Source of the DNA: Eublepharis macularius
Taxonomy: Eukaryota; Chordata; Lepidosauria; Squamata; Eublepharidae
NCBI RefSeq assembly: GCF_028583425.1
Contig: NC_072806.1
Coordinates: 38,238,001-38,302,000 of the forward strand
Length of the DNA stretch: 64,000 nt
Reading direction: 5' to 3'
A program made the position numbers and the translations under genes. The notes beneath the pieces were generated by a model. It made no database searches. It was not told the origin of the DNA and saw only the letters and a list, made by a program, of their open reading frames with translations. This document shows, in pieces, positions 21,001 through 57,388 of the stretch. The number at the start of each line of letters is the position of its first letter. Position 1 is the stretch's first letter.

Positions 21001-24000
21001 GTACAGTAGCCAGAATCTTTTCCCCCAGGACATGCTTCAGTAGACGCCAAATGTGATCCCTCCCTAGACACGCCCTTTCCCACTACTCCCAACAGCTGTA
21101 CCTGCTCTGTTTTGAACACTAGAAGAAATGTGAGTGTTCTGAAGTTTAAGTATTGCTTGACCAATGGTCCACACGCTAACTGGACACACACGGGTGTTGC
21201 AAGCTGCAAGCCTGGCTAAAGTTGCGAAATCCCACCAGCATTTCCGCTCATTTGGGCCAACCTATTCAGCAACCCACTACCTGAATTATTCTGTTCATGA
21301 TGCAGCCATATGCAAAGCAAGTTTGTGTTACTGCCAGTGAGACGCCATCAGAGGAATAGTTTGATTATTACCTTTGGTACCTCAATCTCCCAGATAACAA
21401 ACTCCGCCTTATTTGATTCAGCTCCCAAGTTCTGGCAACCGCTGTCCACAGAATCCATGCTATTTACATCTGAACCTATTTTTTAAAAAAGAAAAACACA
21501 GCACTGAGACAGACTGGACAGCTCGGAGATGAAAGAAGGTGCATTTTTCTGAATCGCAGAACCCAAGAATCCCACTGGAGGGTGCTTCTTACATTTCTTA
21601 TGCCTGCAACGATAAACAGAAACACTGCCTAGCACTGGGGTCCACAGCTTTTTACACTTAACGAACCAAACAATGTGAAAATTCAGAGCCAAAGATCAGA
21701 GGGCCACCCTAAGGAAGCCCATTCACCTAGCTGAAAACATACAACCTACAAGTGATAATTGACATGCAGATTAATAAGCCTGTAACATTTCCAGAGCCTA
21801 AAGCTTGTTGTTCTTAGTCCTTAATAAGGAACTGGCACACACAAGGTCACACAACAACCAATAAATATACAGGAGCATGTTGCACAATTCAGTGCACTGG
21901 CATAAAGCTGTGCATCTGAGGGCCAAACTACAAGTGACGCCTGACACAGGTTGGACCCTTGTCAGCTTCTCTCAAGTTTTGATGGGAAATGTAGGCAGCT
22001 TGGCGGAATGTTGGACAAGTGACAGTTGAAAAGTCCACTGGACAGCAGTCGGAGAGCCAAGCTGCAAGACCAGGACGTGCCTACATTTCCCATCAAAACT
22101 TGAGGGAAGCTGACAAGTGTCCAACCTGTGTCAGGCGTCACGTGTAGCTTGGCCTTGAGACTGCTGGCAACTTTTCCCCTCTATAATTTCCCCTTCTGCG
22201 GAGCCTCTCCAAGGGGCCCTTTCATGCAATAAAATCTTTGCCTACCATTCCCTTCTCATACTGCTTATTGTAGCATCCCAACTACTCCTTCAATATGCCT
22301 TAAGGAAGATTTCATTTTCTTTTTAAGAGCCACATCTGGACTGAATCTGGCTCTAGAGGCACAAGAGGAAGACCCCTGCTTAGACTCATACGAAACAAAG
22401 TCCTCGCAAAACCTGTGGACTAAGGCGGCGTAGCTATGATTGCAGAGGCCGATGGTTCAAATCTCAACAAGCTACATTTGCTCAGTCCCTTATCTGCAAT
22501 TCAGAGAGAACACTGGCTGATTTTACAGGACTGCTGTAGGACTACCATAGTAAAGTACATATTTTGAAAACTAGGAGTGCTATTCAAGAAGAATAACATT
22601 TGTATAGCATTTGCATTTGCTATACAAATGCTAAGAAAAATCTTGAAACGTCTTGCAGTTCTTGGGGCTCCCCAGATTACCAGCAGCCCAAGAAAAGCTG
22701 CAAGCTATGTAAACAGGCCATGTAAACAGGCATCCAACAAATACTGGACATGATTAATACGCACCATTGTTTCTAGTTCAATAAGCAGAGCAGACAAAGG
22801 GGGAAGGAGCCCCGTGCAAGGAACATGAGAGCCGCCCTTCTGTTTTGTGTCCCTTCTTCCGTTACAGAAAACTCAGAACAATCAAAAGTATTTCACTCTG
22901 CAAGTTGTTACGTTCTGGAATTCCCCGCCAGAGGACAGTAGCAAAGACAGCTGTAAAAGGGGACTGACAGATTGGCAGAGGAGACGCCCGTCAATGGCTA
23001 AGAGCCACGGTGACTGAAAGGAACCTCCAGATTCAGAAGAACAAGATTCGGGTCCGGTAGCACCTTAAGGACCAACCAGACTTCCATGATACGAGCTTTT
23101 GAGAGTCGAAGTTCCCTTCTCGAAAGCTTGTACTGTGAAAATCTAGTTGGTCTCAAGGTGCCAGTGGACCCGAATCCATCTTCAGAGGCAGTCAACCGAG
23201 GAGGAACACCCACAGAAAGCCTTGGCCCCTAAGCCCTGCTGCTGGCCACTGTAGGAAACAGCCTGCTAGAGTAGGTGGTCTTCTGGTCATTCAGACCACC
23301 CCTTTAGCAAAAGGAGGGCAGCCAAACCCCACCAACTTGCTGCCCCCAATGAAGGACCTTGAAAGAGATGTCAAGGGGTGGGGCGGTGGGGCTGATACAG
23401 CTCTTCAAATTCTCATTTAAAAAGGGAGTCCTTTTCTTTCAGATGATGCTTCGACCCCATACCAAGTAGTTTGAACTGCAGTAATTGTTATCAACCTTGA
23501 GTGCGCCAATGAAAAGGCAGGATCCCCGGGAAAAAGACCCACTAAAACAAAAGAGATCATGCAGAGATCTCCCTTCCACCGAAGGTGTAATTTGGCTACC
23601 AAAGGAGCCACAAGAGGGACTGAAGTCCCAGGGGTGGGAAGGGGGGGGGGCTCTTTGACCTCCAGTGTTTCCACAACCCCCCTCCCCATGAGCAACTTTT
23701 AAACCCCAGTGGGGGGAGGAGAGGCACAAGCCCCATATAGGGGCTCATCTTTCAACAGTGTTAACCCCCTATATACCCAGCATTATGTTCAAACCACATT
23801 GCCCCCTCCAAGCTACTTTTTATAGTTAAATTATACCCAGGGAGATGTGATCACAGACCCCAAACATTCTGTTTGGCTCGGCCCTCCATCCTGAACATAC
23901 AGGCTTCAGCGGCAAGACCAACTGCTCACGAGTCACCTTGCAAGGAAAGGCGCTGCGATTGCCTGCACCTGATGCTACCATAGCACATGTATCTTAACTT

Positions 24001-27000: not shown

Positions 27001-30000
27001 AAGCAACATACTTGCGGCCAGCAAACAGCAAGCTTCTCTGGAGTGCTTCGCCTTCAGCCAACTCGTGAACGCCAGTGTTTGGAGTGTCTATGACAGAAGA
27101 GACCCTGAGAGCTAAACTACAAGAGATGAATTACACGAGGACACTCGTGTGAAGGGAGCTGCAATGTTAGCCGGGAAGCTGAGTTTTAAAAGACAGATCG
27201 GAAGGCTGTGTCGATTTCCCCTCTCTACAGAGCCGGCAAAGATGGCTCCTCAGAGGGGTTGCTAATTTCCTCTTCACCTCCTAGAAGGGGAAGTGAAACT
27301 GACAGAGCCTTCTGAGAGGCAGAGAGGAAATAAACCCTCTGAGGAGCGGATCTTTGCTGGCTCTGTAGAGGGAGGAAATTGACAAAGCCTTCCGATCTCT
27401 TTTAAAACTCAGCTTCCCAGCTACACCACAACTCCCTTCACGTGCGCATCCGTGCGTAATTCGTCTCTTGTAGCTTAGCTCCCAGTTCCAACTCCCACTC
27501 TGTCATAAAACTCACTGGCTGCTTTCTCTTGGCATAGCCTCCCTTACAGGGGGAGTTCTCAGGTGCCTGCCACTGGCAGCAAACACCTGGGGATTTGCCT
27601 CCTTGCCCGCCAACCCGCCAGTGGTCAGTGGGAGGTGGCAAGCTTCCAGAGGTTGCCCGCCACCAGCAAGCATCCCAGAAATGTGCACTGTGCGCGCAAG
27701 CTCCAAAGGGATGCAACGACGTTACCCCCGGAAATGAAGCTGTTGCACCGGCCACAGGAGCATTCCTGCGTTTCGTATGGGGCCGATTTGGGCCCCAAAC
27801 AGGCCGAATCAGCTCTGCACGGATCATGGGAGTGCTCCCGTGGCCAGTGGGACGATGTCACTTCTGGAGGTGACGTCATCATGCAGGTGCCAGAACACAT
27901 GCAAAGAGGACCTCGCTGCCAGCATGCCCCCCCCTCCCCAGTGGGAGAGTATAGAGACCCGGCAACCCCACTCACAGGATCACTACGCAGAGAAAATGGA
28001 GTAAAATGTTCTTGGATGGATCTGAGTTTAATTTCCAGATTCTGAATGGGAAAACCAGAATGGGGCAATGGTTGAATTAGGATCTGGGAAGACCCACGTT
28101 CAAATCTCCACGCTGCCATAGAACCTTTCTGGGTGACCTTGGGCCAGTTACACACACAGCCTAACCTACCTCACAAGGTTGTTGTAAGGATAAACTGAAG
28201 AAGGGATAAAATGTTGTAAGGCCCCTTGGGTTCCCACTGGGGAGAAAGAGTAGATATAAGTGAAATAAATAAAATGAACGAAAAACCCTTGCTGTACCCG
28301 GTGATCACAGCAACGGGGTTGAATCCAAAAACGTGTTCTCAGACGGGTCAGGACAGGGTCTCCATGCGCAGATTAAAGAGTCCCTTGGTTCACCTTTCTA
28401 GCCAGGGCTGGGAAAAACACCTGGCCGAGTCACTGAAGGCCCAAGAGCCAAACTAGATGAAAACGGGGCTGCCACCTCTGCTTAGGCATGCCTGGCTCCA
28501 TCGGGTATCTGCTCGCCACCTGAGTCAGACCCTCAGTCCGCAGAGCGCAGCTTTGCCCGCCTCTTACGCAAGTTGACTGAGGGCGAGGAACCTCGGAGCC
28601 CAGGGCTGGAAAATACTGGGTCATCAAGGCAGGGAGCCTCGGGCAGGGGGGTAAGGCTTTCTAAACACCTGTTCCTGAGAAAAAAGCTGGAGAAGGAGCC
28701 CAGCGGGCTTCAGCATGCAAAGCACGGGCTCTACCATGCAGGGGTTAACAGTGTGTGCAGGCAGCCTGGAGGAAGAGTGGCCTTGCTCGACAATGAGACT
28801 CCCCCCCAATAAGGTGGGGAGCTGCATCGACAGCGTCTACCACACTCAAGTCTGCTGTGCTTGCCTCCAAACGTGGTGCTAGGCTGTACCACTACAGACT
28901 GCAGGTGGGAAAAATCACAGGGTTAAAGCACCCCCCCCAACCGTGTCAAGATTCCCTGCAAATTAGCACATTAGGAGGGAAGATTCTAGTGCTGTGTTAG
29001 TCATCCCACTTACAGGGATGAATGTAAGGGAGGGGGAAGATAAAACGCTTCATTCAAGTTCAAAGTGGTACAGTCCATTCTAACTTGTTCTGCTGCACAG
29101 GGAGAGCAGCCCATAACCACTGGATACTCAAGTAATGTGAAGCTCGGTGTGAGCCACCTCCCTCAACCCTGCCTCAATTTGGCTAAGTGAAAGGGACCCC
29201 ACGCTAATGCCACTGAGCTCACAGCATTCAGAGCAGCCACGTGTGGCAATTTAAAGCCCCCCCCCCCCACATCTGGAGCCAGTTAAGGATGCTCAAGCTT
29301 CCGGGCCCACCCAGGCATCCATAAGAGACAGCCGGGGCACTCACGGCAGGCACATTCTGTCGGCTGAACTGCTGCATGCAAAATTTCTCACATTCCAAAC
29401 TGAGAGCTTGGAATATTTGGACATTTTGGCACAGGAGTAACTGACAACACTTCTCTGCCTCAGCAAACAGATCTGGCATCTTCCAGAGATCCCACTGGGT
29501 GGCTCCATTTGAGCAACGGGAGGCCAAGCGCAACATCAGCAGCCATGGTTTTAGACAGAAGCCGTCTGCAGGCGATGCAGAAGTAGAAACTACAAACTGG
29601 TTTTGCAGCAGTTCATTGGTGAGGCCGCACCTTGTCCCTCCTGTGCAAAAAAAACCCTCAAGGGACTCAAATACTACGCAGAAGGCGGGCTGCTTCTTAG
29701 TCTGACTTCACTTCTCGGTTCAGAGGGCTTTGCAGAATAGGTGCACATCTGCCAAGCTTTGAAAAAGCTCAACAGCCGCAACTTCACAGCTGGGAGAGCT
29801 CATTGGTACACACACAGTTGCAGAAGCCCTTCCAAGAACACCACCACCAAGTAGGTCAGGACCTGATCTCACTGCTGCAGAGACTTATCAGCTTGCCCGA
29901 GGCGGCCCCTGTGAGTTCATGGCGGAGGCAAGAGACGGCAAGCAGGACTCGGGCTTCTCCGCCTCTCTTTCACATGTGAGAGAGGAGCTTCAGGTCAGGC

Positions 30001-32269
30001 TTGAAGAATAAGCAAGACTGACTGGTGCTGTATTGCTGAGCTATTTTTTCAGAACTCCACTTTGGAACATGTTGGACAGATGCCAGCATTGTCTGGAGGC
30101 CAAAGGAGGACGCAGTGAACTGTGCACAAATGGTTCACACTACACAACACAACTAAGGCACAGAAATGGGGAGGAGTCAGTAAGTTCAGGGGAAGAGCTT
30201 CCTGCTTTGTATTGTCGAAGGCTTTCAGGGCTGGAGAACGATGGTTGTTGTGGGTTTTCCAGGCTGTATCGCCGTGGTCTTGGCATTGTAGTTCCTGACG
30301 TTTCGCCAGCAGCTGTGACTGGCATCTTCAGAGATCTCTCAGTGTCACATCTCTCACTGTGACACTGAGAGATCTTTTGGTGCTACACCTCTCAAGATGC
30401 CAGTCACAGGTGCTGGCGAAACGTCAGGAACTACAATGCCAAGACCACGGCTATACAGCCCGGAAAATGCACAACAACCATAGCTTCTTGCGTTGTACAC
30501 TGAAGCTCTGGCATCTATCATTAAAGGATCTCGGGTGCACAGGACAGCCACTACCAGTCAGACCACAATGATCTAGAAGGCTCAATGATCAAAGTATTAA
30601 GCTTTGCATTAAAACACTGAAAACTGCATCCCCGTGTCATGTTGCTCACCTCCAGAATGTCTAGAAAATGCTCACTGAGTGAGTCCAAGTGTTTCACCGT
30701 TCCCCCACCAAGTACTTAATTATACAAAACGCACAGTAGAAACCATCACAAGCAGCTCTAGGCCTTTAACAAATGGCAGAGATGCCCGTTGGATGGAAGA
30801 CCCACAGCTCCCACGTGCATCTCCACCGTACGAGCTGGAAGAGCTGCGTTAAGAGCTGTAAGACCACCAGGAGTCCAACCCAACTTGCTCTGCTGAGAAA
30901 AGCAGACAGATGCAGGAGCTGGAAAGAGGCCCTTACCTCCAGAGTGATCAGCGTCCACTTCTGTCGGCCACGGCTGCTCATGGTGCAGGTCCAAGCTGTC
31001 CTCCCGCAGTACTCCGTTGCTATACGACACCTTATTCTCAGACGGCATGGGGGACGGAGGTCTCTTGCTGAGTGCAGAATTCTGCTCCGAGTCTTTGACT
31101 GCGGACACAGTCAACGAATCCAGGCGTTGCCGAGAAATGGGAGAAGAGCCATTTTTCAAAAGGTCTTCCGTGCTCACCGCATCTTCTGAGGTGCATGCGC
31201 TGCAGTCAGAATCTTCTGTCACAACATGAACATCTTTAAACTCCTTGTGGTTTGCAACTGTGGTTGGCTCACCAGCAGGCTGCTGGACATGTCTGGAGTC
31301 CCTGGGCTGGCTGCAATTCAGGTTGGCCAAGACGCCATGTGTCAAGTGGCTTGAGAACGTTGCGTGGCAGTGGGTTCTCTCTTCTGGTGGGGGAGGAGAT
31401 CCCACTGTTGCCTTCTCAGAGACGCAGTCATTGCCCTTGGTGGATTCTGCCGGATGAACAGCTCCGGAGGGCACCTTTTCCAGCGGTTTGTCAATGTGGC
31501 TGGCTGCCATCTGACAAAGCCTGTCAGTCATGTTACTAACTGAACTGGAAAGCACTTCCTCAGTGGCGGCCAAGATGACCTGTGAAATTATATGGATGGC
31601 TACCTGCTCAATTTTCTCAACTTCCTCTTCGTCCAAACTTACACCTCCAGTCCTCTTTTTCTCTGAGCTATCCCCCAATAACTCTTCCGGACGGGGGGAT
31701 TCCACCGAGGAAGCCACCAACGGCACCTGGTCTGCAACCTGACTAGAATCCGGCCGGCCCCCAGCAGTAATGTCAGCGCCGAGGGAGTCACTGGTCATTT
31801 GTGCGGTAAGAAAAGGCTCTTGTGCAGGGAACCCAAACACACCCTGGGGCACCACCACGCTATCCAGTTTTTTACTGTCGTCCTGAGGCATGTGGGATTC
31901 AGGGGTCGTTCCAGCAGGGGCAGGAGGGTCTCCTGAGGAATTAAAGCTCTGGGCACTCTGCTCTGACGGGGACGCCCTCAGGGGTGGTGAAAGTGTGCAA
32001 GTCAGTCCTTCGGCAGAACACGCCGTTTCTGAAGGCAGAGCGAGCGTGCTGTCTGATGGCGCGCCTTCTCGGGCACGAGGTCCGGGATGTTCCCTACAGC
32101 CAGGCTCCCTCTTGGGAGAGCCCACCCTGCACGCTTCCAAGCTGTCCAAGTCTGGTCTCTCATGATTGCTGGCACGTTCTTTTTTACGCGACGAGAGCCA
32201 CCACCATCCAATGAGCGCCAGCACTCCGGGTATGGCAAAAGGTAGTAAGGTGCGGAAGCGCAGAGCCAT
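2995..32269 (-). CDS. AKAP1: A-kinase anchoring protein 1, mitochondrial (spliced, coding exons 2-11)
   Basis: AKAP1 (D-AKAP1, AKAP149, S-AKAP84) tethers protein kinase A and other signalling proteins to the outer mitochondrial membrane and binds RNA. Ten coding exons join with consistent phases: 32269-30937, 21469-21372, 19370-19244, 18301-18174, 17230-17053, 15284-15134, 14126-14059, 13064-12991, 12743-12678 and 3057-2995. I count about 761 residues; human is about 903, and most of the difference is in the disordered exon 2 part. In order: a hydrophobic anchor with WWW then basic residues (about 10-30); a PKA RII-binding amphipathic helix at 216-240 ([15 protein letters not shown]); a KH domain from about 469 with GxxG loop GKQG at 485-488; and a Tudor domain at about 625-690 with AWWRAQV and VDYGGY. 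The ATG at 32269 has A at -3 and G at +4 and matches the family start. No frameshift or stop was found. The identity is from recalled human sequence, not a search. Confidence 0.96.
3058..3711. other. AKAP1 intron 10, part left of the DIRS fossil
   Basis: Intronic sequence with no recognised repeat. A GGGT-repeat run lies near 3325-3340. Short ORFs here (up to 90 residues) show nothing recognisable. Confidence 0.5.
3713..3809 (+). repeat. left inverted terminal repeat of the DIRS fossil
   Basis: This shares CTTCTGTGCAG and GATCGGAGATTTCTAAGCTAT-like words with the reverse complement of 12503-12590. It lies at the left limit of the DIRS coding remnants. The outer edge is approximate. Confidence 0.6.
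5742..6665 (+). pseudogene. CR1 ORF1 (coiled coil and GDSL-type esterase), two in-frame stops
   Basis: CR1 ORF1 encodes a nucleic-acid-binding protein with an esterase domain. The ATG at 5742 opens a frame with a CQKC pair (possible zinc knuckle), a leucine-rich heptad stretch ([18 protein letters not shown], about residues 28-45), and an esterase domain with [10 protein letters not shown] and HVGTND, the catalytic Ser and the Asn/Asp block. A TAG at 6414 breaks it, and a TGA near 6512 breaks it again. The same frame continues in typical fashion ([20 protein letters not shown]) to a natural TGA at 6663-6665. That stop overlaps the ATG of ORF2 as TGATG. Confidence 0.85.
6665..9521 (+). pseudogene. 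CR1 ORF2 (endonuclease and reverse transcriptase), two frameshifts
   Basis: ORF2 supplies the AP-type endonuclease and reverse transcriptase for target-primed insertion. Endonuclease motifs: [35 protein letters not shown] and [10 protein letters not shown] (6780-7410). RT motifs: [39 protein letters not shown] and the active site at about 8720. That site reads SADDTKLGG where the family has FADD, a Phe-to-Ser change beside the catalytic Asp pair. The reading frame shifts near 7060 and near 8905. The C-terminal part ends [13 protein letters not shown] with a stop at 9521. Length of about 950 codons is normal. Confidence 0.9.
12503..12590 (-). repeat. right inverted terminal repeat of the DIRS fossil
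   Basis: Reverse complement matches the left end, including GATCGGAGATTTC and TCTTCTTGTGCAG. It lies about 80 bases from AKAP1 exon 10, so the fossil nearly abuts the exon. Confidence 0.6.
12678..12743 (-). CDS. AKAP1: AKAP1 exon 10
   Basis: 66 bases between acceptor CTTTCCAG|GTTACC and donor GATGAG|GTAGGA. It encodes [20 protein letters not shown] plus DE, close to human [21 protein letters not shown]. Phase 0 on both sides. Confidence 0.93.
12744..12990 (-). other. AKAP1 intron 9
   Basis: A 247-base intron with GT-AG ends and no recognised repeat. Confidence 0.8.
12991..13064 (-). CDS. AKAP1: AKAP1 exon 9
   Basis: 74 bases between acceptor GCATCAAAG|ATGAAG and donor GGCACAG|GTACGC. It encodes [16 protein letters not shown] then LLAQ, matching human DDQFSPEADAAMSEMT...LLAQ. 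Phase 1 in, phase 0 out. Confidence 0.92.
13065..14058 (-). other. AKAP1 intron 8
   Basis: A 1-kb intron. The segment 13715-13840 has TTTATCCTCACAACAACCCT and TGTGAGGT, the inverted tail words shared by many tRNA-derived SINEs, so it is probably an old SINE fragment on the minus strand. A run of G lies near 13602. The rest holds nothing recognised. Confidence 0.6.
14059..14126 (-). CDS. AKAP1: AKAP1 exon 8 (Tudor extension)
   Basis: 68 bases between acceptor TTTAAAG|GTCTGA and donor CTTCCAG|GTAATG. It encodes [20 protein letters not shown], against human ...LLDSVMP. Too short to show as a long open frame; it was found by reading for the expected continuation. Confidence 0.93.
14325..14530 (+). 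repeat. tRNA-Ala-type squamate SINE
   Basis: Head: CAGCAGGGCATCTGCCTTG followed by a B-box-like TCAAGATCAATCCCC. Body: AAAAGGACCAGGCAG, GTGACGTGAAAGACCTC and GCTGCCAGTCAGAGTAGAC. The order matches a common squamate SINE with a tRNA-Ala-like head. It lies in AKAP1 intron 7 and is moderately diverged. Confidence 0.65.
15134..15284 (-). CDS. AKAP1: AKAP1 exon 7 (Tudor core)
   Basis: 151 bases between acceptor CTCCTGCAG|TTGGCG and donor CAGATCAG|GTGAGC. It encodes [18 protein letters not shown] and [17 protein letters not shown], ending LRQIR. The aromatic residues of the Tudor pocket (WW, Y, YGGY) are present. It enters in phase 1 and leaves in phase 2. Confidence 0.96.
15285..17052 (-). other. 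AKAP1 intron 6
   Basis: The segment 15540-15600 (ATTCTGCCCTCCCCGC) looks like an inverted LINE/SINE 3' tail. A perfect-looking tandem duplication of AGTGCCACAACACAAGG lies at about 16012-16043. The rest shows no recognised repeat or ORF. Confidence 0.5.
17053..17230 (-). CDS. AKAP1: AKAP1 exon 6 (link from KH to Tudor)
   Basis: 178 bases between acceptor TGTGGCAG|CTCATG and donor GTGGAAG|GTAAGC. It encodes [31 protein letters not shown] and [18 protein letters not shown], nearly identical to human AKAP1. This is the start of the extended Tudor/SN-like unit. Confidence 0.96.
17868..17962. repeat. hairpin MITE (TAAGCAGAGTTACTCC family)
   Basis: The left arm GCAATCCTAAGCAGAGTTAC and right arm GTAACTCTGCTTAGGACTGC are near-perfect inverted copies around a short loop, about 95 bases in all. 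A relative lies at 56205-56305. It sits in AKAP1 intron 5. With no coding capacity, it would be a non-autonomous DNA transposon; the superfamily is not clear. Confidence 0.7.
18174..18301 (-). CDS. AKAP1: AKAP1 exon 5 (end of KH domain)
   Basis: 128 bases between acceptor TCTGCTTAG|GCTCCC and donor TTCCTGG|GTAAGG. It encodes [19 protein letters not shown], the last helix of the KH domain, then a proline-rich link ending LPMTSW, as in human. Phases are 1 in and 0 out. Confidence 0.95.
18410..18635 (-). repeat. tRNA-derived SINE, old copy
   Basis: Read on the minus strand: TATACTGTAGTGGTTGAGCT at the head, then GTCAAGGT/GGTGGCCTC-like words, AGCCCCAGCTCACCAGC, TGTGGGGATAATAAC and a tail with CACTTTGAGTGGGTTC. 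The family is that of 62630-62885, more diverged. It lies in intron 4. Confidence 0.6.
19244..19370 (-). CDS. AKAP1: AKAP1 exon 4 (KH domain core)
   Basis: 127 bases between acceptor CCCTGTAG|CATTTAG and donor ATAGAAG|GTGAGG. It encodes [19 protein letters not shown] and SGAKIYIST followed by ICHIEG. The GKQG loop is the nucleic-acid-contacting GxxG of KH domains and is intact. The variable strand near the end (VSYAQDF) departs from human LPYTQSV, an ordinary amount of divergence. Confidence 0.95.
19371..21371 (-). other. AKAP1 intron 3
   Basis: Contains one SINE fragment (19912-20060), an A-run at 20106 and otherwise no recognised element. The ORF remnants have no recognisable domains. Confidence 0.6.
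19912..20060 (+). repeat. tRNA-Ala-type SINE, partial
   Basis: The head is very tRNA-like: GGCCCAGTGGTAGAGTGCTT (A box), GCATGCACAAGG, GGTTCAATTCCC (B box) and AGCATCTCCA, closely resembling tRNA-Ala(TGC). The body then matches the 14325 family weakly (GGGAATCTCTGCTC, AAACCTCTGCCA). It is not a functional tRNA gene, because the acceptor stem does not pair and a SINE body follows. Confidence 0.65.
21372..21469 (-). CDS. AKAP1: AKAP1 exon 3 (linker into KH domain)
   Basis: 98 bases between acceptor GGTTCAG|ATG and donor CCAAAG|GTAATA. It carries [11 protein letters not shown], matching the conserved NSMDSVDS of human AKAP1, and ends in IWEIEVPK, the first strand of the KH domain. It begins in phase 1 (joining G to AT to give Asp) and ends in phase 0, as the next exon requires. 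Confidence 0.93.
21919..22155. repeat. palindromic MITE with about 100-base arms
   Basis: GTGACGCCTGACACAGGTTG at the left has its reverse complement CAACCTGTGTCAGGCGTCAC at the right. The arms continue inward through AAGTTTTGATGGGAAATGTA and its complement TACATTTCCCATCAAAACTT. The loop is about 60 bases. It lies in AKAP1 intron 2. The target duplication is not clear, so the superfamily is open. Confidence 0.75.
22412..22570 (+). repeat. tRNA-derived SINE, partial
   Basis: Contains GGCGGCGTAGCTATGATTGC followed by a B-box-like GGTTCAAATCTC, then SINE body words. Diverged. Confidence 0.45.
22597..22630. repeat. short perfect hairpin
   Basis: CATTTGTATAGCA and TGCTATACAAATG are perfect 13-base inverted copies around an 8-base loop. 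The context is intronic and no function is indicated. Confidence 0.6.
23030..23178. repeat. palindromic repeat (AAGCTTGTACTGTG type)
   Basis: The left arm ATTCGGGTCCGGTAGCACCT and right arm GTGCCAGTGGACCCGAATCC are inverted. The centre has CTCGAAAGCTTGTACTGTGA. The related repeat at 55853-56045 shares GTAGCACCTT and CTCGAAAGCTT. This is probably a non-autonomous DNA element. Confidence 0.65.
23180..24940. other. AKAP1 intron 2 segment, no recognised element
   Basis: Mixed sequence with a G-run at 23640 and an AT-rich block from about 24000 to 24900. There are no ORFs of note and no repeat that I recognise. Confidence 0.4.
25010..25405 (-). repeat. 5S rRNA-related SINE, split by a MITE
   Basis: On the minus strand the segment 25185-25140 reads AAGCAGGGTCGGCCTTGGTT and then TTGGATGGGAGACC, which are 5S rRNA internal-promoter words (5S: AAGCAGGGTCGGGCCTGGTT, TTGGATGGGAGACC). 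The upstream part CTCAGATCCT lies beyond 25362, interrupted by the palindromic MITE. Downstream is the SINE body GCAAACAGCCTC / CTTTCCACCACCCA. This is a SINE, not a 5S gene. Confidence 0.7.
25188..25364. repeat. palindromic MITE (GTCGAAGGCTTTC family), nested in the 5S-like SINE
   Basis: The left side TTGTCGAAGGCTTTCACGG leads into GGTTGTTGTGGGTTTTCCGG. The inverse, CCGGAAAACCCACAACCACC, lies at 25341-25360. The inner arms GCCGTGGTCTTGG and CCAAGACCACGGC also pair. A second copy is at 30205-30482. Its position inside the 5S-derived head shows that it inserted later. Confidence 0.8.
25406..26265. other. AKAP1 intron 2 segment, no recognised element
   Basis: AT-rich intronic sequence with a T-run near 25858. 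Nothing recognised. Confidence 0.4.
26266..26398 (+). repeat. L2-like LINE 3' tail
   Basis: Ends with CACCGCCCAGAGCCCCTGAG, a G-run, then GATTTATAAATCGAAATAAT and an AAAATA repeat. This is the usual 3' end of squamate L2-type elements (CGCCCAGAG...GGCGGTATATAAAT). Confidence 0.55.
27105..27482. repeat. MITE with long inverted arms (AGCTAAACTACAAGAGA family)
   Basis: The ends GAGAGCTAAACTACAAGAGA and TCTCTTGTAGCTTAGCTC are inverted. Inside, AAGCTGAGTTTTAAAAGA pairs with TCTTTTAAAACTCAGCTTCC, and GGAGGTGAAG-type words flank the centre. It is about 380 bases. A half copy is at 60895-61080. No coding potential; non-autonomous DNA transposon of uncertain superfamily. Confidence 0.75.
27550..27985. 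repeat. fold-back repeat, diverged
   Basis: The words CCGGCCACAGGAGCATTCCT and its imperfect inverse GGAGTGCTCCCGTGGCCAGT lie on either side of GCCGATTTGGGCCCC. Nearby, GACGATGTCACTTCTGG and GGTGACGTCATC add further symmetry. The segment is GC-rich and ends in GACCCGGCAACCCC. The long opposite-strand ORF (27625-28155) is a by-product. Confidence 0.4.
28055..28275 (+). repeat. tRNA-derived SINE
   Basis: Words in order: GGCAATGGTTGAATTAGGA (head), ACGTTCAAATCTCCACGCTG (B box), GGGTGACCTTGGGCCAGTTA, CTAACCTACCTCACAAGG, GTTGTAAGGATAA and a tail ending in ATAAATAAAAT. Clear family member in AKAP1 intron 2. Confidence 0.7.
28280..30200. other. AKAP1 intron 2 segment, no recognised element
   Basis: Ordinary intronic sequence with C-runs near 28802, 28930 and 29258. 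ORFs up to about 100 residues show no domains. Confidence 0.4.
30205..30482. repeat. palindromic MITE (GTCGAAGGCTTTC family), longer copy
   Basis: The left arm has TTGTCGAAGGCTTTCAGGG, GGTTGTTGTGGGTTTTCC, TGGCATTGTAGTTCCTGACG and TTTCGCCAGCAGCTGTGACT. The right arm repeats these inverted (CTGGCGAAACGTCAGGAACT, AATGCCAAGACCACGG). The centre has a second palindrome, AGATCTCTCAGTGTCAC against GTGACACTGAGAGATCT. It lies about 0.45 kb from exon 2. Confidence 0.8.
30483..30936 (-). other. AKAP1 intron 2, part next to exon 2
   Basis: Intron start (GTAAGG at 30936). The exon 2 frame stays open here for 59 more codons to 30758. The residues do not resemble AKAP1, so read-through is thought accidental. 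Confidence 0.6.
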
Positions 32270-34964: not shown

Positions 34965-35567
34965 CATAGTAATAACATTTGATTTATATACTGCCCTTCA
35001 GGATGACTTAACACCCACTCAGAGTGGTTTACAAAGTATGTCATTATTATCCCCACAACAAACACCCTGTGAGGTGGGTTGGGCTGAGAGAGCTCCAGAG
35101 AGCTGTGATCAGGCCTTTTTTTCAGCAGGAACGCAGTGGAACAGAGTTCCGGCACCTCTTGAAAATGGTCACATGGCCGGTGGCCCCACCTCCAAATCTC
35201 CAAACAGGGGGGAGTTTAGATTGCCCTCCGCACCAGTGGCGCAGAGGACAATCTAAACTCCCCTCTGTTTGGAGATCAGGGGGTGGGGCCACCGGCCATG
35301 TGACCATTTTCGCTGAGGGCAATTTAAACTTTAAAAAACTCCTCCCTTGTTCCAGCTGACCCAAAGTGATGTCATTGTATGGTCCCAGGAATGTGCATGC
35401 ACTTTGCACGTGCGCATGTGGTACCACCTCTTTTCACAGAAAAAAAGCACTGGCTGTGACTCACCCAAGGCCACCCAGCTGGCTTCAAGTGGAGGAGTGG
35501 GGAATCAAACCCTGTTCTCCAGATTAGAGTCCCGTTGCTCTTAACCACTACACCAAACTGGCTCTTA
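34965..35567 (-). repeat. tRNA-derived SINE, split by a hAT MITE
   Basis: On the minus strand: GAGCCAGTTTGGTGTAGTGG head, GGGTTTGATTCCCCACTCC B box, AGCTGGGTGGCCTTGGGTGA, then (after the insert) AGCTCTCTCAGCCCAACCCA, GTGGGGATAATAATGACA, GAGTGGGTGTTAAGTCATCC and a tail with TATATAAATC. Nearly identical in layout to the copy at 62630-62885. A hAT MITE occupies 35110-35452. Confidence 0.85.
35110..35452. mobile_element. hAT-type MITE with fold-back core
   Basis: The element begins CAGGCCTTTTTTTCAGC and ends GAAAAAAAGCACTG. The flanks GCTGTGAT (35102-35109) and GCTGTGAC (35453-35460) form an 8-base target duplication with one mismatch, the hAT length. Inside, ATGGTCACATGGCCGGTGGC pairs with GCCACCGGCCATGTGACCAT, and GGAGTTTAGATTGCCC pairs with its inverse. 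It has no coding capacity. The same family is at 57117-57388. Confidence 0.85.
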
Positions 35568-49385: not shown

Positions 49386-49438
49386 CACAAGGCTTGCCCA
49401 TACAGTCTGTTCAGACAGCTCTGTACTGTCACAGGCCC

Positions 49439-50959
49439 GATTCGGTTTCGTTTTCTCAGCCATGCCGGACGCTCCTCTCGGCTGGTCCGGGAGGAAACGA
49501 CCGGGCACCCTGACCGGGCGGCTGATCCGCAAGGATTAGCCCCCAGGACTCCCAGGGAGGGAGCCAGGGTCCGGGACGCGGCGGGAAGAACTCCCCGAAA
49601 TCAATGCGGGGGGGAAATTGCCCGTTTGTCCCTATGGAGGCCGGCAGATGTGCGCGGCGCCTCGAGTGCCGCCGGGCAACGAGAAACGGCAAGTAAAAGA
49701 AACAGGCGGAAGCCTGTAAACAAGCGAATCCCTTCTGTTCTACAAGCGTTTGTGAAGGAGAGGTTGATCTGAAGAAGACTCGCTCTTCCCCTTCGTTGAG
49801 TTCCAGAATTTTGTTGGCGCCCCCCCCCCCAAATGGCAGCAAAGAAGCAAAGTCCCGCTCTCGGTAAGTCAATCTCGGCTACCTTGAAGGGGGAGTCGCT
49901 CGAAGAGTTGGTGCGCAGGGCGGTGGTGGAAGCCATAAAACCCTTTGTTGACAAGCTGAACGAAACTGATCAAAGGGTGGGCTTAATTGAAAGCGAGGTG
50001 AAAACCATTAAGGCAGCAGCGGGGGGGGGGGGGGCAGAAAAGTCTGCTCTGGAAAGTGCGTCACTTGTGAAGGCTACAAAAAAGGAGCTGAAGTTGGTGG
50101 AGAACCAGCTGATCGGGCTACAGGTGGAACGAACGCAGACAATTTTGCGTCTCCAAAACGTGAAAGAGGAGGAAAATGAGGATCTGTGGGATTTGGTCTC
50201 GGAACTACTGGCGACACCCGCGAGGACGACTAAAGAAGAGGTTAAAAGCGCCATTTTGGAGGTCCGTCGGGCTTCTTCAAAATATGCAACAAAGCGACAG
50301 TTGCCTCGTGAGATCATTATTGACTTTTCATCTAAAAAGATTCGGGACACCATCCTATATAACTCATATAATGCGGATTTGGACTTTATGGGTTTGAAAG
50401 TCAAGATTTTGAAGGACGTTCCATTTCTAGTCCGGAAACGGCGTTTTAAATATAAAAAGTTTGCAGCTCTTCTGAGGGACCATGGAATAAAGTACAAATG
50501 GTTATTCCCGGAAGGAATATGGTTCAGATATAAAGATCAGGCCTATAAGATATTATCAGAAGATCAACTAAAGGATTTTGAGAATAAAAACCCAGAACTC
50601 TGCTGCACCAAGAAAGAAGAAAAGGAGGAGCCGGAGGGGGGGGAGGAGGAGGAGAGCATCGCAACAGCAGTTGCACAGAGAGAACTGCGTCCAGGACCTA
50701 GAAGGGGGAGGAAAGTTTAATCAGATTTTGAAATGTTTATTCTCTGTATGATTAACCACTCCATCATTATTCTATGGAGCTATTTTTGTATTATGACAGT
50801 ATGAAGGGAAACATTGAAGTGTAGTGTTTAGTGTTTGTAGTTCATCCCCCCCCTTTTCTTTTTCCACTCCCCTTTGTCCCTTCCCTCTCCCCTTTCCTTG
50901 TGATAGTCTGTAGTGTTTTGTAGTTATGAAAAATAAAAAAATTTATTAAAAAAAAAAAA
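49439..50959 (+). mobile_element. ORF1-only LINE-1 element (HAL1-like), with target duplication
   Basis: A 1.52-kb element flanked by perfect 17-base copies of TGTACTGTCACAGGCCC at 49422-49438 and 50960-50976, and ending in an A-rich tail (AATAAAAAAATTTATTAAAA then a run of A). It contains a GC-rich leader of about 390 bases, one open ORF1 and a 3'UTR of about 240 bases with a C/T-rich stretch. No endonuclease or reverse transcriptase is present. The clean duplication, the A-tail and the open frame all suggest a fairly recent insertion by LINE-1 machinery supplied in trans. The alternative is an ordinary L1 that lost ORF2 by deletion before or during insertion. Confidence 0.85.
49833..50720 (+). 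CDS. LINE-1 ORF1-type RNA-binding protein, 295 residues, uninterrupted
   Basis: LINE-1 ORF1p forms trimers that coat L1 RNA. This frame has the family layout. A basic N-terminus precedes a helical coiled-coil region (about 20-105). Next comes the RRM-like part with TQTILRLQNVKEEENEDLWD (about 105-125) and LPREIIIDFSSKKIRDTIL (about 157-175). The C-terminal domain has GLKVKILKDVP, RRRFKYKKFAALLRDHGIKY, WLFPEGIWFRYKDQAYKI and the closing 'FEN'. An acidic and then Arg-rich tail follows. Human ORF1p is 338 residues, so this is a little short. A 14-base G run (50021-50034) within the frame encodes four Gly and keeps it open, but such a run is slippage-prone. The ATG follows a 10-base C run. Host expression is unknown. 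Confidence 0.85.
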   Translation: MAAKKQSPALGKSISATLKGESLEELVRRAVVEAIKPFVDKLNETDQRVGLIESEVKTIKAAAGGGGAEKSALESASLVKATKKELKLVENQLIGLQVERTQTILRLQNVKEEENEDLWDLVSELLATPARTTKEEVKSAILEVRRASSKYATKRQLPREIIIDFSSKKIRDTILYNSYNADLDFMGLKVKILKDVPFLVRKRRFKYKKFAALLRDHGIKYKWLFPEGIWFRYKDQAYKILSEDQLKDFENKNPELCCTKKEEKEEPEGGEEEESIATAVAQRELRPGPRRGRKV

Positions 50960-51079
50960 TGTACTGTCACAGGCCCAAGAACACAAAGAGAGCTTCAGAG
51001 CTATGGGGGGATTTGAACCCGGATCTCTCAGCCCCTAGCCCAATACTCTAACCAATACACCACAGGCTCCATCATCCCA

Positions 51080-55852: not shown

Positions 55853-56045
55853 ACATAGAAGAAAAGAGTCCAGTAGCACCTTTGAGACTAGCCAACTTTA
55901 CTGTGGCATAAACTTTTGACAATCACAGTTCTTGCATTTTGCATCTGAAGAAGAGAATTGTGATTCTCGAAAGCTTATGCTACAGTAAAGTTGGTTAGTC
56001 TTAAAGGTGCTACTGGACTCTTTTCTATTTTGCTGCTACAGACCA
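55853..56045. repeat. palindromic repeat (GTCCAGTAGCACCTT family)
   Basis: AAAAGAGTCCAGTAGCACCT at the left and AGGTGCTACTGGACTCTTTT at the right are perfect inverse copies. Inner CCAACTTTACTGTGGCATAA pairs with TTATGC...AGTAAAGTTGG. The centre has TCTCGAAAGCTTATGC. A distant copy is at 23030-23178. It borders the CpG island on its upstream side. Confidence 0.8.
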
Positions 56046-56129: not shown

Positions 56130-56345
56130 ATTTTATTAGTTGCCAATCTCCAGACCAGGCTTGGAGATTCCCAGAATTACAACTGATTTCCAGACTACAG
56201 AGATTTGCAGTGCAATCCTATGAAGAGTTACTCCAGTCTAAGCCCATTGAAGTCAATGGCCTTAGACTGGAGTAACTCTCCATAGGATTGGACTGTCTGT
56301 TTCCCTGGAGAAAATGGCTGCTCCCCAAACTTGGCAACTGTACTT
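56130..56345 (+). repeat. interspersed repeat split by a hairpin MITE
   Basis: TTGCCAATCTCCAGACCAGG, GGAGATTCCCAGAATTACAA and CTGATTTCCAGACTACAGAG lead to the MITE at 56205. The repeat resumes with CCCTGGAGAAAATGGCTGCT. The family is common in squamates; I do not know its formal name. Confidence 0.6.
56205..56303. repeat. hairpin MITE (same family as 17868), nested
   Basis: The left arm GCAATCCTATGAAGAGTTAC and right arm GTAACTCTCCATAGGATTG are inverted. The inner parts TCCAGTCTAAG...CATTGAAGTCAATG...CTTAGACTGGA are a nearly perfect palindrome. Better preserved than the copy at 17868. Confidence 0.75.
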
Positions 56346-57116: not shown

Positions 57117-57388
57117 CAGGGCTTTTTTTTTCTGGGAAAAGAGGTGGTGGAATTCAGTGGGTTGCCCTCAGAGAAAATGGTCACATGGCTGGTGGCCCCG
57201 CCCCCTGATCTCCAGACAGAGGGGAGTGGAGATTGCCCTCCGTGCCACCAAGTGGCGCAAAGCAGCGCAGAGGGCAATCTCAACTCCCCTCTGTCTGGAG
57301 ATCAGGGGGCGGGGCCACCAGCCATGTGACCATTTTCAAGAGGTTCCAGAACGCTGTTCAACCGCGTTCCAGCTGGAAAAAAGCCCTG
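57117..57388. mobile_element. hAT-type MITE with perfect 8-bp target duplication
   Basis: The element begins CAGGGCTTTTTTTTTC and ends GGAAAAAAGCCCTG. It is flanked by CTGAAGAC at 57109-57116 and 57389-57396, a perfect 8-base duplication typical of hAT. Inside, AAAATGGTCACATGGCTGG pairs with CCAGCCATGTGACCATTTT, and CCCTGATCTCCAGACAGAGG pairs with its inverse, leaving a loop near GTGGCGCAAAGC. It has no coding capacity. Sister copy at 35110. Confidence 0.92.

Follow-up and report, generated by a model that had tools for sequence, protein, structure and literature searches.

A young ORF1-only LINE-1 family, and a second distant one, in a gecko genome

Structure and coding content of the element

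The window, that is the whole 64-kb stretch of the Eublepharis macularius genome analyzed here (C17:38238001-38302000), contains an element of about 1.5 kb at 49439-50959, which is bracketed by the two copies of a 17-bp target-site duplication. The duplicated sequence, TGTACTGTCACAGGCCC, for which no strand is assigned, is found at both 49422-49438 and 50960-50976 without a single mismatch. Between these copies all features lie on the forward strand. A 5'UTR of 394 bp (49439-49832), which starts with GATTCGGTTT and includes a C-run directly ahead of the ATG (49820-49830), is followed by ORF1 (49833-50720), with its ATG at 49833, 295 sense codons extending to 50717 and a TAA at 50718-50720; the frame stays open for a further 11 codons upstream of the ATG. 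The product is similar to the L1 ORF1p and has an acidic/basic C-terminal tail, and the coding sequence includes a G-run (50021-50034; 14 G in the window copy) that differs among the copies described below. ORF1 adjoins, with no ORF2 between them, a 3'UTR of 227 bp (50721-50947) that has a pyrimidine-rich tract and an AATAAA (50932-50937) ahead of a 12-base A-tail (50948-50959). The first-pass annotation had described this locus as an ORF1-only L1 with an open 295-codon ORF, a perfect 17-bp duplication and an A-tail, and the window sequence bears out that description.

Sequence comparisons of ORF1 recovered solved LINE-1 ORF1p chains (2ldy, E 2.2e-4; 2yko, E 3.2e-4) at no more than 24.1 bits, and the human L1 ORF1p with weak similarity. 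The element thus encodes an L1 ORF1p as HAL1-type elements do, with a match to the Pfam Transposase_22 profile (E 0.003, 18.3 bits) that is below the cut-off of 22.4. The window element lacks an ORF2 with its endonuclease and reverse transcriptase, which sets it apart from autonomous LINE-1s; reduced to the LINE-1 half that binds RNA, it must obtain its copying enzyme from elsewhere. A predicted structure based on 11 near-identical ORF1s had a mean pLDDT of 40.9 and was set aside. Searches for relatives of ORF1 yielded 19 pattern stretches among viral contigs and 116 among prokaryote genome contigs, none of which was confirmed, and nothing among phages and plasmids. Within the 64-kb window there is no second copy of the element, and Rfam and tRNA scans gave no match. 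The window additionally contains self-complementary (palindromic) repeats at 27105-27485, 30235-30488, 35161-35311, 57173-57337, 55860-56026, 21912-22164 and 56208-56295, some of which are related copies with a foldback- or MITE-like appearance.

Copies of the element across the genome

We searched the genome to which the window belongs (2,236,738,225 bases in 72 contigs); in these searches the candidate numbers of the first look are not copy numbers, and the counts of scored matches are lower bounds. With the whole element as query, the best 40 of 2,691 candidates (window copy included) are all 97-100% identical and run nearly end to end, from query base 1-10 through 1516-1521, under a ranking by whole-element score that favours full-length copies. 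Likewise, the best 133 of 22,804 candidates obtained with ORF1 (window again included) are all 97-100% identical, and 130 of these scored matches have no internal stop, a proportion biased by the ranking on protein score. Among 30 loci cut out from the 133 matches, the window being one of them, none has an ORF2 and 29 are full length, the remaining one (L056) beginning at base 303. We refer to these closely related copies as subfamily A of family 1.

The UTRs were also used as queries. With the 3'UTR alone, the best 40 of 1,002 candidates comprise 23 copies already known and 17 further matches, every one of which has ORF1 in the upstream DNA: it extends over the whole 600 bp read in 13, is truncated in three and has an internal deletion in one. 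A query made up of the first 362 bp from the 5'UTR gave 1,363 candidates, the best 40 of which are all 99-100% identical. Eight of them were read, with 56 bases per locus taken at the expected end of ORF1; the 3'UTR starts at the distance typical of an ORF1-only element in all eight, and the last ORF1 bases are present in seven of the eight stretches.

Hence, no ORF2 was seen in any family-1 copy read, comprising 40 whole-element matches, 40 3'UTR matches and, out of 133 ORF1 matches, the 30 that were opened; as only top-ranked matches were scored, rare ORF2-bearing relatives could have been missed. The first-pass annotation had proposed that many copies with the same ORF1-3'UTR junction would speak for a family, and this junction indeed recurs in 40/40 whole-element matches, 17/17 further 3'UTR matches and 8/8 loci selected by their 5'UTR. 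Neither of the two outcomes that it had named as speaking against a family turned up at the loci read: there is more than one copy, and none of these loci has an ORF2 ahead of the common 3'UTR. As in HAL1, the absence of ORF2 is a trait of the family, as judged from the whole-element, ORF1 and 3'UTR matches, the 5'UTR spacing and the subfamily B described below.

Insertion sites and target-site duplications

Insertion sites were compared for 61 distinct copies (window included), 40 from the DNA search and 21 found by the protein search only. A target-site duplication of 10-21 bp (mode 17) flanks 58 of the 61, while a duplication of at least 10 bp is absent at L011, L030 and L046; in a control with mismatched flank pairs a duplication was found in 0 of 600. 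The start of the duplication is A-rich, with A at frequencies of 0.66, 0.67, 0.50 and 0.59 at the first four bases, the preceding base is C or T in 84%, and T occupies position -2 in 59%. Read on the other strand, this motif is TTTT/(G or A), which is the type of site used by the L1 endonuclease. In many copies 1-4 extra bases, often G, lie between the duplication and the start of the element, as is expected from capped mRNA templates. With their A-tails and 10-21 bp duplications at many loci, the copies represent independent L1-like insertions. We also observed C at -5 (48%) and C at -1 (50%) in addition to the T at -2 (59%) across the 58 sites, a CATC/AAAA-like target preference that could be the signature of a specific endonuclease.

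Age of subfamily A and integrity of its ORF1

The 40 copies selected by DNA search differ from one another by 1.2% on average (pairwise range 0.13-2.8%), and the tree of the 61 copies has a median end branch of 0.31% (0.0031) and 13 well-supported inner branches. Family 1 has therefore moved recently and has subfamilies. ORF1 is open over at least 285 codons in 20 of the 40 DNA-selected copies, with 285-305 codons in 17 and 306-307 in three, and is cut short in the other 20. In 19 of the latter a stop is met past the variable G-run, at codons 76-113, while L025 stops at codon 21. This G-run, which varies from about G8 to G14 among the copies, is the main site of frame-shifts; its variation could reflect decay, reverse transcriptase slippage, assembly error or tolerated slippage, and the broken ORF1s may stem from post-insertion decay, from slippage or from errors of assembly. 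Mapping cut versus open ORF1s on the 61-copy tree requires at least 12 changes. As the shifts lie mostly behind the slippery G-run, 21 of the 61 copies come from the protein search only and the number stands without a shuffled control, we draw no conclusion on cis-dependence from this mapping.

An older subfamily and selection on ORF1

One of the subfamily A copies (L069) is nested within a diverged relative, which represents an element of an older subfamily, B. This host element can be aligned with the window element over the 5'UTR, ORF1 and 3'UTR (69-74% identity), lacks an ORF2 and shows an imperfect flanking duplication as read by eye. With its 3' half, extending from the C-terminal half of ORF1 through the 3'UTR, as query, the best 40 of 3,376 candidates all span the junction; they include the query itself, and the others are 94-96% identical. 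Of eight B copies fetched, six are 70-72% identical to the window element in alignments that start at base 1-4 and end at 1517-1521, while L091 (from base 43) and L092 give two-piece alignments. Over nine B copies, ORF1 is open for at least 285 codons in three and cut short in six. The simplest reading of the 3'UTR that both subfamilies have directly behind ORF1 is that the loss of ORF2 preceded the split of A and B, which we regard as the most likely course.

Over 249 codons of ORF1, comparing the group state of the 40 A copies with that of the nine B copies yielded a dN of 0.125, a dS of 1.35 and a dN/dS of 0.092 (codon bootstrap 0.063-0.123). This ratio is approximate, since synonymous change comes close to saturation, and codons 1-60 and codons 69-115, each taken alone, have a saturated and hence undefined dS. 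The ORF1 dN/dS below 1 that the first-pass annotation had named, across copies, as a sign of selection is seen, at 0.09, between A and B. The C-terminal tail is looser, with an A/B dN/dS of 0.33 over 32 codons. The B copies, which differ by 4.5% on average, have a pooled pN/pS of 0.51. Within A, where the UTR spectrum gives an N:S expectation of 2.05:1, variants present in at least two copies show an N:S of 9:11 (p 0.053) and singletons one of 45:30 (p 0.22), with p 0.31 for shared versus singleton variants; taken alone, the selection signal within A is weak. These N:S patterns fit a constrained source lineage whose dead copies decay. The 5'UTR differs between A and B at 78 of 374 sites (21%) as against 103 of 164.5 synonymous sites (63%), a degree of conservation well above that of neutral sequence, which suggests that it too is constrained, or that there has been exchange between the subfamilies.

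Other L1-related elements in the same genome

A Transposase_22 search of the genome gave 22 matches among 150 scored of 9,780 candidates, and four were opened. L098 (404-2046) and L100 (C4:55717322-55718966) constitute a further element with ORF1 only, about 1,650 bp long and here termed family 2, with 96.7% mutual identity. Its ORF1 has 360 codons, scores 28.3 bits against PF02994 and is about 23% identical to that of family 1 over the aligned stretches. In a genome search with this element, identity to the query copy is 82-97% among the best 40 of 199 candidates; 30 of these run from base 1-7 to at least 1627, and ten are split or shorter. Duplications of at least 11 bp flank seven of ten sampled copies and one more has a duplication of 9 bp, while the mismatched-flank control (at least 10 bp) gave 0 of 90. 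Pairwise dN/dS over the first 310 codons is 0.15-0.45 (10 pairs from five copies).

The L1s at L097 and L099 each have an ORF1 frame of 300 codons together with endonuclease and reverse transcriptase, but their ORF2 is broken into several frames. When the reverse transcriptase of L099 was used as query, the longest open frame in the best 97 of 40,018 candidates was one of 1,244 aa at L101. This element has an ORF1 and an ORF2 frame that is open over these 1,244 aa, with endonuclease and reverse transcriptase domains; as the frame starts just inside the endonuclease, its start may be broken. The family-1 ORF1 is 25-32% identical to the ORF1s of these resident L1s over the aligned stretch, blastn between family 1 and the resident L1s gave no match at E <0.25, and a non-exhaustive search found no ORF2-bearing element that shares the family-1 5'UTR, ORF1 or 3'UTR. 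No duplication of at least 11 bp was found in the stretches scanned around L097, L099 and L101, the 3' end of L101 being unplaced; a 5'-truncated L1 copy nested in L099 has a target duplication of 14 bp. An AATAAA, a short A/T-rich stretch and A make up the 3' tails of A, B, family 2 and this nested L1, a likeness that is suggestive only, as such sequence is simple. Two further elements were noted alongside: an apparent tRNA-derived SINE, recognized by eye, on the reverse strand at about 6850-7100 of L101, downstream of the ORF2-bearing L1, and what we take to be CR1-type reverse transcriptase fragments at L088.

Mobilization of family 1 and alternative explanations

Taken together, these observations make it very probable that the window element is a young copy of a HAL1-like non-autonomous L1 family, which would supply its own ORF1p in cis and use the ORF2p of a resident L1. 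In such a cycle, the family-1 5'UTR would drive transcription of a polyadenylated mRNA, which would be translated into ORF1p, and the latter would coat its own RNA in cis. The ORF2p of a resident autonomous L1 would then be captured in trans on the A-tail, nick a target of the TTTT/(G or A) type and copy the RNA by target-primed reverse transcription. The cut-site bias and the similarity of the tails point, only indirectly, to L1 ORF2p acting in trans as the candidate mobilizing enzyme. For a pol II-driven Alu transcript, as for processed pseudogenes, ORF1p was required in human cells in addition to ORF2p (PMC2666806); an element that brings its own ORF1 would have to obtain no more than ORF2p from outside. 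Given selection on ORF1 in an element without an ORF2, the best-supported reading is that ORF1p acts in cis on its own RNA.

An alternative is that A and B are repeated deletion derivatives, which arose separately from autonomous L1s with the same UTRs and ORF1 that exist or once existed, purifying selection on ORF1 having acted only in those parents. The A/B dN/dS alone cannot place selection on a branch, and HAL1, which encodes ORF1p only, is described as having multiple origins among mammals (PMC5753468). Nevertheless, we consider repeated deletion unlikely, since in both subfamilies ORF1 is followed immediately by the 3'UTR that they have in common, and ORF2 is unseen across the whole-element matches (40), the 3'UTR matches (40) and the opened ORF1 loci (30 of 133). 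ORF1 might also be a mere passenger on a polyadenylated transcript from a strong promoter that is copied like a processed pseudogene, with the frame open only through youth. This would accommodate both the 20 of 40 DNA-selected copies with a shortened ORF1 and the singletons within A, which show no clear departure from neutrality, but it is made quite improbable by the A/B dN/dS of 0.09 and by the 0.15-0.45 among the 10 pairs from five copies of the distant family 2. Finally, an ordinary L1 with a single internal deletion, or a rearrangement confined to this locus, that kept ORF1 open by chance would look alike in a lone copy, and the window has no second one, but this is scarcely conceivable and was rejected in the face of dozens of copies with the common junction and their own duplications (58 of 61).

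Relationship to known systems

The reading of family 1 as a HAL1-like non-autonomous family invites comparison with other elements that depend on borrowed machinery. Like the mammalian HAL1 (half-L1), the best-known case of this lifestyle, on which Bao and Jurka 2010 is said to be the primary paper, family 1 is an ORF1-only L1 derivative. It differs from HAL1 in that its host is non-mammalian, its ORF1 resembles the human L1 ORF1p only weakly, its ORF1-only form is common to subfamilies about 28% apart, a distant second ORF1-only family is present in the same genome, and no L1 with family-1 UTRs was found. With the resident L1s (L097, L099 and L101) it shares an L1-type ORF1 and an A/T-rich 3' tail; unlike them, it has no ORF2, its ORF1 is only 25-32% identical to theirs, and no common UTR sequence was found. 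HeT-A of Drosophila likewise encodes only a Gag/ORF1-type protein and borrows its reverse transcriptase in trans; however, it is telomere-specific, its Gag is unrelated and it belongs to another clade. SINEs, SVA and processed pseudogenes use ORF2p in trans (PMC2666806), as proposed here for family 1, but unlike the latter encode no ORF1p of their own.

In the literature, L1 is described as the likely source of the machinery for HAL1s (PMC4161310), and one source reports HAL1 activity in rat and that inserted HAL1 copies keep an internal promoter (PMC8535693). For squamates, PMC6050309 describes genomes that abound in CR1, BovB and L2 and in which L1 does not dominate. Among the papers listed in literature searches, whose lists were capped and which covered few subscription journals, none deals with ORF1-only L1 families outside mammals, as judged by title and the opening of the abstract.

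Biological significance

Family 1 is therefore of a known, HAL1-like kind, and its interest lies in the persistence of the ORF1-only form and in the second such family alongside it. We give roughly even chances to the proposal that at least two distant ORF1-only lineages (family 1 with A and B, and family 2) have each maintained a highly diverged ORF1 under purifying selection, package their RNA with this private ORF1p in cis and compete for the ORF2p of separate autonomous L1s. If true, being ORF1-only would be a stable way of life in the gecko genome, comparable to that of a gag-only parasite. What makes ORF1p necessary, and whether its main beneficiary is its own RNA, is a standing question in L1 biology. 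A young, many-copy ORF1-only family with an old sister subfamily and a low ORF1 dN/dS presents a natural experiment in this regard: with no ORF2 beside it that its retention could serve, selection on ORF1 points to a benefit of ORF1p for its own RNA. The presence of two distant families in one genome also suggests that the half-L1 lifestyle is not peculiar to mammals.
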